NCBI RefSeq assembly: GCF_903644135.1
Contig: NZ_CAHJXA010000001.1
Coordinates: 1 to 64,000, forward strand
DNA: 64,000 bases
DNA from: Sphingomonas bacterium
GTDB lineage: Bacteria > Pseudomonadota > Alphaproteobacteria > Sphingomonadales > Sphingomonadaceae
Direction: 5' to 3'
A program made the position numbers and the translations under genes. Position 1 is the first letter of the stretch; every line of letters begins with the position of its first letter. Shown here one piece after another: positions 4,457-9,031 of this stretch. The notes under the pieces were generated by a model. It was given only the letters and a program-made list of their open reading frames with translations, did not search any database and had not been told where the DNA came from.

Positions 4457-5314
4457 TCAGGCCACCACCCGGGCGAGCAGCCGGTCGATCGGCTCGTGCA
4501 GCGCCGGTTCGGACAAGGTCGGCGCATGGCCGACTCCCGCTACCGTCGTCAGCTCGGCACGGTCGAGCCCCGCGACCATCCGCTCGGCGGTCGCCGCCGA
4601 CAGGATGTCCGACCGGCCACCGCGCACCACCAGCGTCGGCACGTCGCGCAGCGCCGACAGCGCCGCCCACATATCGGGGCCGGTCTCCGCACCCGGGTTG
4701 CGCAGCGGCTCGGCGATCTTGAGGTCGTAGTCGAGGACGATCCGCCCGGCGCTCGTCAGCCGGTACAGCCGCTTGGCCATCGCCAGCCAGTCCTCGATCC
4801 GCCAGTCGGGATAGACGTCGCGATTGGTGTCGGCGACGGCGCGCGCGGCGTGCATCCAAGTCGGGAAGCTGGACGCGCGACCGACATAGCCCTTGATCCG
4901 CGCGAGGCCGACCGGCTCGATCTCCGGCCCGACATCGTTGAGCAGCGCCGCGGCGATCGGTGCCCCCGCCCGGGCCAGCAGCATCGTGACGATCCCGCCC
5001 AGGGAGGTGCCGATCACGACGAACCGTCCAATCCCCTGATCAGCGAGCAACGCCTGGACATCGGCCACATAGGTCGCCGGGACATAGCTCATCGGGTCCT
5101 TCGCCGCCTCGCTGCCGCCGCGCCCGCGCAGGTTGACGGCGAGCACGCGCCAGCGTCCCGCCAGCCGCGCGGCGAGCGTGTCGTAATCGCGCGCGTTGCG
5201 GGTCAGCCCTGGTAGGCAGACGATCGGCGGACGGCTCGCATCGCCGGCATAGTCGCGGGCGTGCAGCTTCAGCCCGTCGGGCGAGGTCCAGTACAGCTGC
5301 TGATACGCCGACAT
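4457..5314 (-). CDS. alpha/beta-fold hydrolase
   Basis: 285 residues with the alpha/beta hydrolase plan. The oxyanion region is VCLPGLTRNARDY, the nucleophile elbow is GTSLGG (GxSxG), the acidic residue lies in VRGGRSDIL and the histidine in VAGVGHAP. It lacks a signal peptide, so it is probably a cytoplasmic esterase or related enzyme. It is the first gene of a minus-strand unit that continues into the GT4 gene 6 bases later. The start is head-to-head with SelO, 37 bases apart. Confidence 0.85.
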   Translation of the reverse strand: MSAYQQLYWTSPDGLKLHARDYAGDASRPPIVCLPGLTRNARDYDTLAARLAGRWRVLAVNLRGRGGSEAAKDPMSYVPATYVADVQALLADQGIGRFVVIGTSLGGIVTMLLARAGAPIAAALLNDVGPEIEPVGLARIKGYVGRASSFPTWMHAARAVADTNRDVYPDWRIEDWLAMAKRLYRLTSAGRIVLDYDLKIAEPLRNPGAETGPDMWAALSALRDVPTLVVRGGRSDILSAATAERMVAGLDRAELTTVAGVGHAPTLSEPALHEPIDRLLARVVA

Positions 5315-5351
5315 GGTTGCGCCCCCGGTGACCCGCGCCCCATATCGCCGG

Positions 5352-6710
5352 ATGCCCTTCTCCCCGCAAGCATATCGGCCCGCCGCCGCCCTCCTGTCGC
5401 TCGGGCAAGGCTTCTACGATCCGGTCGAGGCGGCGGACTTCCCGCAGGCAAGGCTGCGCTTCCGCAACGACTGCGCCGCCGCGGAGGTGGGCCTGAGCGA
5501 GCTGACCGACGACGAGTGGTGCGCGCATTTCGGCCGGTTCGTGGCCATGCCGGGCACGCTGCCGCAGCCGCTGGCGCTACGCTATCACGGTCACCAGTTC
5601 CGCCACTACAATCCCGAGATCGGCGACGGTCGCGGCTTCACCTTCGCGCAGCTGCGCGATGCGCGCGGCCGGCTGATGGACCTCGGCACCAAGGGCTCCG
5701 GCACGACGCCGTGGAGCCGGTTCGGCGATGGCCGGCTGACCCTCAAGGGCGGCGTGCGCGAGGTGCTGGCGAGCGAGATGCTGGAGGCGCTGAACGTGGC
5801 GACCAGCCGCAGCTTCTCGCTGATCGAGACCGGCGAGGCCCTGCATCGCGGCGACGAGCCTTCGCCGACCCGCTCGGCGGTGCTGGTGCGGCTCAGCCAC
5901 GGCCATGTCCGGATCGGCAGCTTCCAGCGGCTCGCCTATCTGCGCGACGAGGCGGGACTGCGGGCGCTGACCGGCTACGTCCTGCGCGAGCTGTACGGCG
6001 AGGATAGCGACGACCCGATCCGCCTGCTCGACCTCGTCGTCGCCCGCACCGCGACGCTGGCGGCCGGCTATATGGCGGCGGGGTTCGTCCATGGCGTGCT
6101 TAATTCCGACAACATCAACGTCACCGGCGAGAGCTTCGACTATGGCCCGTGGCGGTTCGCGCCGACCTGGGACCCCGGCTTCGTCGCCGCCTATTTCGAC
6201 GAGGGCGGCCTCTACGCCTTTGGCCGCCAGCCCGAGGCGATCCACTGGGACGTGATGCAGCTCGCCGCCTCGCTGCGGCTGATCGCCGACAGCGAACCTT
6301 TGATTGCAGCGCTGGAGCGATTTGCGGAGCGATACCAGCCGGCGATCGCCGCGGCGATGCTGTGGCGGCTTGGCGTCACGCCGCGCGGCCCCGCTGAAGA
6401 CCGTGCGCTTGTCCAGGTCGTCGAGCGGGCTATGCGCCGCACCGGCGTCGCGCTCGAACGCTTCTTCTGGGATGCGTTCGGCGGAACGTTGCCGGCCAGC
6501 TACGCAGATGACTGGGAGGAAGTGCGCGCGGCGCTCGCAAGCTATCAGCCCCGCACGTCGCGCAACCACCCCTATTGGCAAGGCGGCCCCTGCTCGATGC
6601 TGATCGATGAGGTCGAGGCGATCTGGGCGGCGATCGACCGCGACGACGATTGGGGACCGTTCGACGCCAAGGTGGCCGCGATCCGTGCGATGGGGCAAGC
6701 ACTCGCCTGA
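5352..6710 (+). CDS. selO: protein adenylyltransferase SelO (YdiU family)
   Basis: SelO is a pseudokinase-fold enzyme that transfers AMP from ATP to protein Ser/Thr/Tyr residues and is linked to redox stress. The family signatures are present: RYHGHQF, the glycine-rich ATP region GTKGSGTTPWSRFGDGR, and the metal-binding stretch HGVLNSDNINVTG with its DYGPW continuation. At 452 residues it matches shorter bacterial members. The ATG at 5352 is chosen because the upstream in-frame GTG at 5313 abuts the divergent hydrolase start and would add 13 unconserved-looking residues. Confidence 0.9.
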   Translation: MPFSPQAYRPAAALLSLGQGFYDPVEAADFPQARLRFRNDCAAAEVGLSELTDDEWCAHFGRFVAMPGTLPQPLALRYHGHQFRHYNPEIGDGRGFTFAQLRDARGRLMDLGTKGSGTTPWSRFGDGRLTLKGGVREVLASEMLEALNVATSRSFSLIETGEALHRGDEPSPTRSAVLVRLSHGHVRIGSFQRLAYLRDEAGLRALTGYVLRELYGEDSDDPIRLLDLVVARTATLAAGYMAAGFVHGVLNSDNINVTGESFDYGPWRFAPTWDPGFVAAYFDEGGLYAFGRQPEAIHWDVMQLAASLRLIADSEPLIAALERFAERYQPAIAAAMLWRLGVTPRGPAEDRALVQVVERAMRRTGVALERFFWDAFGGTLPASYADDWEEVRAALASYQPRTSRNHPYWQGGPCSMLIDEVEAIWAAIDRDDDWGPFDAKVAAIRAMGQALA

Positions 6711-6753: not shown

Positions 6754-8166
6754 ATGCCCGACGCGCTGATCTCGCACGAACCCGCGACCAGCATCGAGCT
6801 GTGGCGCGGCACGGCCGGCGATGTCGACGCGGAGGTGGCGGTCGCCCGCGCCGCTTGGAGCGGCTGGGCGGCGCAACCGCTCGGCTTCCGCAGCGAGACC
6901 CTGCGCCGTTTCGCCAACGTCGTGCGCCAGCGCAGCGAGGCATTGGCGGACACCTGCGCCCGCGAGACCGGCAAGCCGCTATGGGAGGCGCGCGCCGAGG
7001 TCGAGGCGGTGATCGCCCGTGTCGACATCTGCATCCGCGCCTATGGCGAGCGCACCGCCCAGCGCCGCATCGATGCCCCGCTCGGCGCGCGTCTGGCGGT
7101 GCGCCACAAGCCGCATGGCGTCGTCGCGGTGATCGCGCCCTTCCCCTCGCCGCTGCTGCTCCCCGCCGGCCGTATCCTGCCGGCGCTGCTCGCCGGCAAT
7201 GCCGTGGTGTTCAAGCCGTCGGAGCAGGTCCCGGCCAGCGCCACGGCGCTGACGGAGTGCTTCCACGCCGCCGGCCTGCCGCCCGAGTGCCTGCGCCTCC
7301 TTATCGGCGGTTCGGCGGAGGGCAAGGCGCTGGCGGCGCACCCCGATGTCGACGCCGTGCTGTTCACCGGCTCCGCCCGCAGCGGCCTGGCGCTTGCCCG
7401 CAGCCTGGCGGCGCGACCCGAGACGCTGCTGGCGACCGAGCTAGGCGGCAACAACCCGATCGTCGTGTGGGACACGCCCGACCTCCACAGCGCCGCGGTG
7501 CTGGTGGTGCAGTCCGCCTTTGCCGGTGCCGGCCAGCATTGCATGGCGGCGCGACGACTGATCGTCGAGCAGCGGCTTGCCGAGCCGTTGCTGGCCGCGG
7601 TCAACGCCCTGATCGGCCGCCTGATCATCGGCGCGCCGCACGACAGCCCCGCTCCCTTCATGGGACCGGTCCGGGACAATGCGACCGCGGATGCGCTGAC
7701 CGAGAGCTTCCTCGAACTGCTGATGCGCGGCGGCCGGGCGCTGCGCCATCCCGAACGGCGCGACGACCATCTACCCTTCCTGACGCCGGCGCTGATCGAC
7801 GTGACCGGCATCGCCGAGCGGCCCGACATCGAGCTGTTCGGGCCGATCCTGCAGGTCGTCCGCGTCGACAGCTTCGACGCTGCCATCGCCGAGGCGAACG
7901 CCACCCGCTTCGGGCTGGCCGCATCGCTGATCAGCCAGACGCCGGCGCTCTATGACCGCTTCTGGGCGGGAACACGGGCGGGCATCGTCAACTGGAACCG
8001 GCCGACGATCGCGGCCGCGGCATCGGCTCCGGCGGGCGGCACCGGCTGGTCGGGCAATCACCGGCCCGGATCCTGGTACGAGGCGGACAATTGCGCCTAT
8101 CCGGTGACCTCCAACGAGGCGGAGTCGGCGCGGGCCTCGATCGGTATCGGCCTGCGCGATGGCTGA
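6754..8166 (+). CDS. aldehyde dehydrogenase, succinylglutamate-semialdehyde dehydrogenase (AstD)-like
   Basis: 470 residues, closest in motif pattern to AstD, which oxidises N-succinylglutamate semialdehyde with NAD+ in arginine catabolism. Visible are the Lys of VVFKPSEQVPA, the NAD site FTGSARSG, the general-base Glu in ATELGGNNP and the nucleophile Cys in AGQHCMAARR. The segment that normally reads P-(W/Y)-N-F-P, supplying the oxyanion-hole Asn, is APFPSPLL here, so that Asn appears replaced by Pro. No other ast gene is nearby, which argues against a classical AST operon. The real substrate is uncertain and activity may be altered. Confidence 0.75.
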   Translation: MPDALISHEPATSIELWRGTAGDVDAEVAVARAAWSGWAAQPLGFRSETLRRFANVVRQRSEALADTCARETGKPLWEARAEVEAVIARVDICIRAYGERTAQRRIDAPLGARLAVRHKPHGVVAVIAPFPSPLLLPAGRILPALLAGNAVVFKPSEQVPASATALTECFHAAGLPPECLRLLIGGSAEGKALAAHPDVDAVLFTGSARSGLALARSLAARPETLLATELGGNNPIVVWDTPDLHSAAVLVVQSAFAGAGQHCMAARRLIVEQRLAEPLLAAVNALIGRLIIGAPHDSPAPFMGPVRDNATADALTESFLELLMRGGRALRHPERRDDHLPFLTPALIDVTGIAERPDIELFGPILQVVRVDSFDAAIAEANATRFGLAASLISQTPALYDRFWAGTRAGIVNWNRPTIAAAASAPAGGTGWSGNHRPGSWYEADNCAYPVTSNEAESARASIGIGLRDG

Positions 8167-8239: not shown

Positions 8240-9031
8240 ATGGCCAGTCTGCTCGACCCCCAAGCCCGCGGGCGCGTGATCCTCGTCGGTGCCGGCCCGG
8301 GCGATCCGGGGCTGCTCACCGTCCGCGCGGTCGAGGCGCTGAGGGTAGCGGACGTTGTCGTTCATGACGGCCTGATCGATCCGCGCGTCCTCGACCTCGC
8401 CCCCGCCGCTGCGCAGCGCATCTCGGTCGCCAAGCAGCGCGCGCGCCACACGCTGCCGCAGGATGCGATCAACGCGCTGATCGTCGCGCATGTGAAGACC
8501 GGCGCGATCGTCGTGCGGCTGAAGGGCGGCGACCCCTTCATCTTCGGCCGCGGCGGCGAGGAGGTGGAGGCGGTGCGCGCCGCCGGCCTGCCGGTCGAGG
8601 TGATCCCCGGCGTTTCGGCGGCGCTGGGCTGTGCGGCGGAGGCGATGCTGCCGCTCACCCACCGGGATCATGCGTCGGCCGTCTCGTTCGTCGCCGGCCA
8701 GTGCAAGGGGCTGAGCGAGCAGGACTGGTCGGGGCTGGCGGGTCAAGGCCGCACCTTGGTGATCTACATGGGCGTCGCCACCGCCGACGCGATCGCCGAC
8801 AAGCTGATCGCCGACGGCGTCGCCCCAGACATGCCGGTCGCGGTGCTGGAGCGCGGCACGCTCGCCGGCCATCGCGCGCTCAAGACATTGCTCGCCGACC
8901 TGGGCGCGATGGTGAAGCGCGAGGGCGTCGCCAGCCCGGCGATCATCGTCGTCGGCGAGGTCGTCGAGCTGTCGGACGCCGAGGACAAGCTCGCCCGCTG
9001 GGCTCGCATCGCGGATGAGGTAGCGGCATGA
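8240..9031 (+). CDS. cobA: uroporphyrinogen-III C-methyltransferase (siroheme branch)
   Basis: SAM-dependent methylation of uroporphyrinogen III to precorrin-2, the first step towards siroheme, the cofactor of the sulfite reductase two genes downstream. The 263 residues match single-domain SUMT enzymes: VGAGPGDPGLLT at the N terminus, VRLKGGDPFIFGRGGEE, and VIPGVSAALGCAAEA. The oxidase/ferrochelatase domain of CysG is absent, so those steps must be encoded elsewhere. An in-frame ATG at 8159 overlapping the previous stop codon is possible but adds 27 residues before the domain. The stop overlaps the next start as ATGA. Confidence 0.88.
   Translation: MASLLDPQARGRVILVGAGPGDPGLLTVRAVEALRVADVVVHDGLIDPRVLDLAPAAAQRISVAKQRARHTLPQDAINALIVAHVKTGAIVVRLKGGDPFIFGRGGEEVEAVRAAGLPVEVIPGVSAALGCAAEAMLPLTHRDHASAVSFVAGQCKGLSEQDWSGLAGQGRTLVIYMGVATADAIADKLIADGVAPDMPVAVLERGTLAGHRALKTLLADLGAMVKREGVASPAIIVVGEVVELSDAEDKLARWARIADEVAA

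Follow-up and report, generated by a model that had tools for sequence, protein, structure and literature searches.

The described enzymes closest to the protein considered here are those of the AstD group (TIGR03240/PRK09457; PDB 3JU8, 4KNA and 5U0L), AstD being the N-succinylglutamate 5-semialdehyde dehydrogenase. Within the same superfamily, PMC11596857 describes for PutA an oxyanion hole formed by Asn707 and the backbone NH of Cys844, an aromatic box that includes Phe708, an Arg843 that pairs with the substrate carboxylate and an anchor loop that binds it; PMC10599462 and PMC5069622 give the Asn the same oxyanion role. Taken by sequence order, Asn707, Phe708, Arg843, Cys844 and the anchor loop of SmPutA (its L-glutamate gamma-semialdehyde dehydrogenase domain) correspond to residues 131, 132, 262, 263 and about 417–427 of our protein, which, unlike PutA, lacks the counterparts of Asn707, Phe708 and Arg843.

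The gene lies in a stretch of 64,000 nucleotides (hereafter the window) from the start of contig NZ_CAHJXA010000001.1 of a Sphingomonas bacterium (Table 1). Its product shares with AstD the overall fold, the catalytic Cys and Glu, most cofactor-side residues and the conserved locus of its own orthologues; the closest PDB entry to the predicted structure is the AstD 3JU8 (TM 0.96 by query length, 45% identity). This prediction has a mean pLDDT of 89.6 (57 sequences), falling to 59 at residues 421–430 and 50 at 431–440, which is the altered loop. In terms of profiles, the protein matches PF00171 over the domain (339 bits, cut-off 23) and the NCBIfam AstD subfamily model PRK09457 (NF006992; 566 bits, cut-off 514), and its best curated model is AstD, but it falls short of the AstD equivalog TIGR03240 (502 bits, cut-off 579), as do its relatives in genomes G365 (522), G355 (465, partial) and G080 (548), whereas four canonical orthologues (597–610) and a paralogue on contig C23 of the window's genome (666) pass; the G355 protein, cut by a contig end, scores 509 with PRK09457. 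An earlier note, made from the letters of the window, had read PFPSP in place of the oxyanion-hole motif next to an intact Cys and Glu, and both the open reading frame and the alignment to AstD bear this out: residues 129–133 line up, with no gap, with PYNFP or the residues printed in its place in 3JU8, 4KNA and 5U0L. Thus, of the aldehyde dehydrogenase hallmarks, Cys263 and Glu229 are present and the oxyanion-hole Asn is absent, Pro131 standing in its place. A register shift that would restore the Asn is excluded by this gap-free alignment, the nearest downstream Asn in the protein being the ordinary conserved N149. A frameshift or assembly slip is unlikely, since the frame stays open and can be aligned along all 470 residues and since two other assemblies show related changes.

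Table 1. Features of the window around the AstD-type gene (coordinates in the window)
Feature	Position	Strand	Remark
Presumed selO (YdiU), immediate upstream neighbour	5313..6710	+	43 bases before the astD start codon
AstD-type aldehyde dehydrogenase, 470 aa, non-canonical active site	6754..8166	+	ORF, uninterrupted from ATG at 6754 to stop at 8166; profiles; predicted model
PFPSP where PYNFP is expected; Asn131 to Pro (7144–7146), Phe132 to Ser	7138..7152	+	alignment
N138 to A	7165..7167	+	in all three clade members; N in 79/79 other orthologues of the set
Lys154 of KPSE, cofactor side, retained	7213..7215	+	
Glu229, general base, retained	7438..7440	+	
R262H, catalytic Cys263 retained (7540–7542), T264M	7537..7545	+	
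Anchor loop and PFGG Phe, PTNGASS.APF to PTIAAAASAPA (residues 417–427)	8002..8034	+	
Trp441	8074..8076	+	common to three clade members; 0/79 others (Y 64, F 13, L 2)
Downstream neighbour, presumed cobA-like uroporphyrinogen-III methyltransferase	8240..9031	+	

Far from being an isolated oddity, the gene is the selO-linked AstD orthologue that the family keeps nearly universally. Across the genus, 288 of 295 genomes, the window's included, have an astD match at E <=1e-140; among the seven that lack one (G260, G261, G015, G088, G085, G346 and G356), G346 (locus L190) and G088 (L111) carry the gene in two reading frames, G085 has it in pieces, and G260 and G261 retain only a distant AstD. In the wider family, 373 of 397 sampled genomes, from 93 of 96 genera, match, at 1e-120, a profile built from the three altered sequences described below, a count that may include ordinary AstDs. 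SelO is found in the flank of 45 of 49 genus loci (some genomes being counted twice and one locus being cut by a contig end), and selO directly precedes astD in all 28 family loci inspected (L241–L268), 20 of them from other genera. With the same locus behind selO throughout, horizontal replacement is unsupported. The adjacency of selO and astD is thus seen family-wide even though astA-astB are located elsewhere. No report of selO beside astD was found in the open-licence literature, and the accessible parts of two papers on SelO neighbourhoods do not mention an aldehyde dehydrogenase. A single scan of genome contigs gave 12 loci, at most 34% identical and none orthologous.

Among 127 orthologues (107 from the genus and 20 from beyond it, a non-random sample, many being top hits of the window protein or relatives that we selected), Asn131 is kept in 124 (79/82, 17/17 and 28/28) and missing in three, which form a small clade: the window's genome (PFPSP), G365 (PFCNP, with an Asn one position further on) and G355 (PACTP). 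In that order residue 131 is P, C and C and residue 132, a Phe in 76 of 79 others, is S, N and T. A search of the open-licence literature found no other aldehyde dehydrogenase without this Asn. The PFCNP of G365 may resemble the P-x-T-N-P that CoA-acylating aldehyde dehydrogenases of the EutE/AdhE type have in the same register, but by profiles and structure match the window protein is overall an AstD, unlike that type.

Nor is the single residue, on which the earlier note had dwelt, the whole story. Phe132, Phe427 (presumably the other Phe of the aromatic box) and the anchor loop are altered in all three, and Arg262 in two, whereas Cys263 and Glu229 are retained in each. The three share N138A, W441, G163A, Y386F and six further residues, each rare (<=5%) in the other 79 proteins of the set, and 37 of the columns conserved at >=95% in those 79 deviate in two or three of them; for random trios the number of such columns averaged 0.14 and never exceeded 6, and identical rare residues numbered at most 21, a value that came from close relatives. 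When columns are grouped by presumed anatomy, a grouping made after the changes had been seen, the three differ at 19, 20 and 18 of 41 conserved substrate-side columns as against 5, 6 and 3 of 33 on the cofactor side and 18, 16 and 24 of the 158 others; 76 others in the set have at most one substrate-side change each. G355, whose gene is cut by a contig end, has also lost the cofactor-side E360. The earlier note had left the choice between a slow enzyme, another substrate and no catalysis; in view of this clustering, an AstD that is simply slow is less likely than one whose substrate has been changed or lost.

The three genomes are grouped by a DnaB DNA tree (support 95/93, with G355 and G365 together at 100/99). 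The AstD tree, with the motif columns excluded, pairs only G355 with G365 and gives the window protein no definite place; the three do not emerge as one group, though a single clade is not rejected (p-AU 0.236); its terminal branches to the three are long (0.41, 0.30 and 0.45, median 0.13).

The native place of astA-astB can be read from G029 and G016, where the genes run rppH, DUF481, M20 hydrolase, astA, astB, small gene, cysD (names other than astA and astB presumed). In all three clade genomes astA-astB are missing from this place: with no M20-astA-astB between, rppH stands 77 bases from the small gene on contig C75 of the window's genome, adjoins it on C158 of G365, and is followed by DUF481 and the small gene on C78 of G355. 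Since cysD is absent downstream of the small gene on the window genome's contig and on the G365 stretch, rearrangement rather than bare deletion is possible. In a locus with the genes in place, the roughly 57 bases that follow astB (L140:11251-11307) are matched at 87–93% by three further contigs of the window's genome and may be a dispersed repeat close to the lost genes. In two relatives (L140, L141) the gene ahead of astA-astB codes for an M20 hydrolase, which might stand in for AstE. Two close relatives that keep native astA-astB, G336 and G202, have a canonical site; G020 and G084, incomplete genomes in which AstB was not found, also have one, which runs counter to a link with the loss of astA-astB.

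That other ast genes are absent, as had been claimed earlier, holds near the gene but not genome-wide: on contig C23 (L039) the window's genome has a second AstD (51% identical, PFNFP intact) together with an AstA-like gene and an M20 hydrolase. These sit among sugar-hydrolase-like and regulator-like genes. AstB was not found in this assembly (82% complete, 387 contigs); it is present in 287 of 295 genus genomes and in 263 of the 264 that are at least 90% complete, the others in which it was not found being G261, G338, G355, G356, G084, G020 and G362. A second AstD is insufficient as the sole cause of the changes, as 7 of 11 examined genomes with one keep a canonical first copy.

These patterns are most readily accommodated, with a probability of about one half, by an AstD that was released from arginine catabolism and had its substrate side rebuilt while remaining folded and cofactor-binding, and that most likely acts on another aldehyde. 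The selO-linked AstD is ordinarily an enzyme of arginine succinyltransferase (AST) catabolism; in the lineage that comprises G355, G365 and the window's genome, the departure of native astA-astB from their usual locus would have freed it from this role. The substrate side (the oxyanion Asn, F132 and F427 flanking the substrate, Arg262 and the anchor loop) may then have been rebuilt, with fold, cofactor site, Cys263 and Glu229 kept under purifying selection. Such a protein most likely still binds NAD(P) and would act on some other aldehyde that perhaps carries less negative charge, the oxyanion presumably being held by the Cys backbone NH, possibly with help from a polar residue 132 (Ser, Asn or Thr). 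Judged from sequence, an enzyme active on another aldehyde seems somewhat more likely than a dead one. Counting against this reading, no two of the three have the same pocket (P/C/C, S/N/T, A/L/S and H/S/R), a picture that relaxed constraint would give as well.

The same variability, with no consistent new pocket, can also be seen as the mark of a pseudoenzyme, a protein that no longer oxidises an aldehyde and is retained because of its fold, its NAD binding or a partner such as SelO, which is a possible though unlikely alternative. The family-wide selO linkage and the joint loss of the oxyanion Asn and substrate-flanking Phe point this way, as does the relative G080, which has Phe for the catalytic Cys263 in an open frame; a pure scaffold, however, need not keep Cys263 and Glu229, and all three altered proteins do. 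G080 is part of a second lineage (G064, locus L146; G080, L073; G055, L079) in which Asn131 is kept and the same gene shows 11, 10 and 8 substrate-side changes; each of these three genomes also holds a second AstD. At the opposite end, the three may all be active dehydrogenases with an alternative oxyanion hole, the donor having moved from 131 to 132, and so constitute a new selO-linked enzyme with a new substrate; the occurrence of Ser, Asn or Thr at 132 in every protein that lost Asn131 allows for such a move, but this stronger version is doubtful.

A gene drifting toward loss after its pathway was lost might be expected to leave long end branches, and elsewhere in the genus the gene is indeed split or only a distant AstD persists. 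In a custom codon branch model on a fixed tree (13 taxa, 12 for selO), omega for astD is raised on the branches of the three (0.191, background 0.111; 2dlnL 22.7), with no shift in selO (0.162, 0.178) or dnaB (0.058, 0.058). Nevertheless, 0.19 is far below 1, and fixing omega at 1 on these branches is worse by 145 lnL, a rejection that is robust; thus, the protein is maintained, and a free pseudogene or simple dead relic is disfavoured. Taken by itself, the window branch shows no significant rise (0.181, background 0.122; 2dlnL 3.35), and an omega of 1 costs 21 lnL. A control with G202 as foreground moved in the opposite direction (0.052, background 0.135) with a 2dlnL of 20.3, so the test statistic is poorly calibrated and overstates certainty. 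The three separate long branches are also free of stops, their changes are concentrated on the substrate side rather than spread, and 10 residues are common to them, all of which makes decay in progress improbable.

That the protein is still an AstD with its old substrate, the site tolerating the changes and polar residue 132 serving as oxyanion donor, is very improbable given the altered anchor loop, Phe132, Phe427 and Arg262, the shortfall against an equivalog cut-off that four canonical orthologues pass, and the canonical second AstD and missing AstB of the window's genome, even though G365, with Asn at residue 132, astA-astB on contig C238 and no second AstD found, may still use its altered AstD in the pathway.

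The finding directs attention to a selO-astD neighbourhood that spans the family. Should the altered enzymes prove active, they would test the degree to which aldehyde dehydrogenases need the oxyanion Asn for their chemistry. With the ancestor-like form at the same locus in more than 100 of the relatives read, the system lends itself directly to reversions, comparison with the ancestral state and assays. In light of the preferred reading, the locus may be seen as a natural experiment in which a metabolic enzyme was released and rebuilt after its partner genes left.
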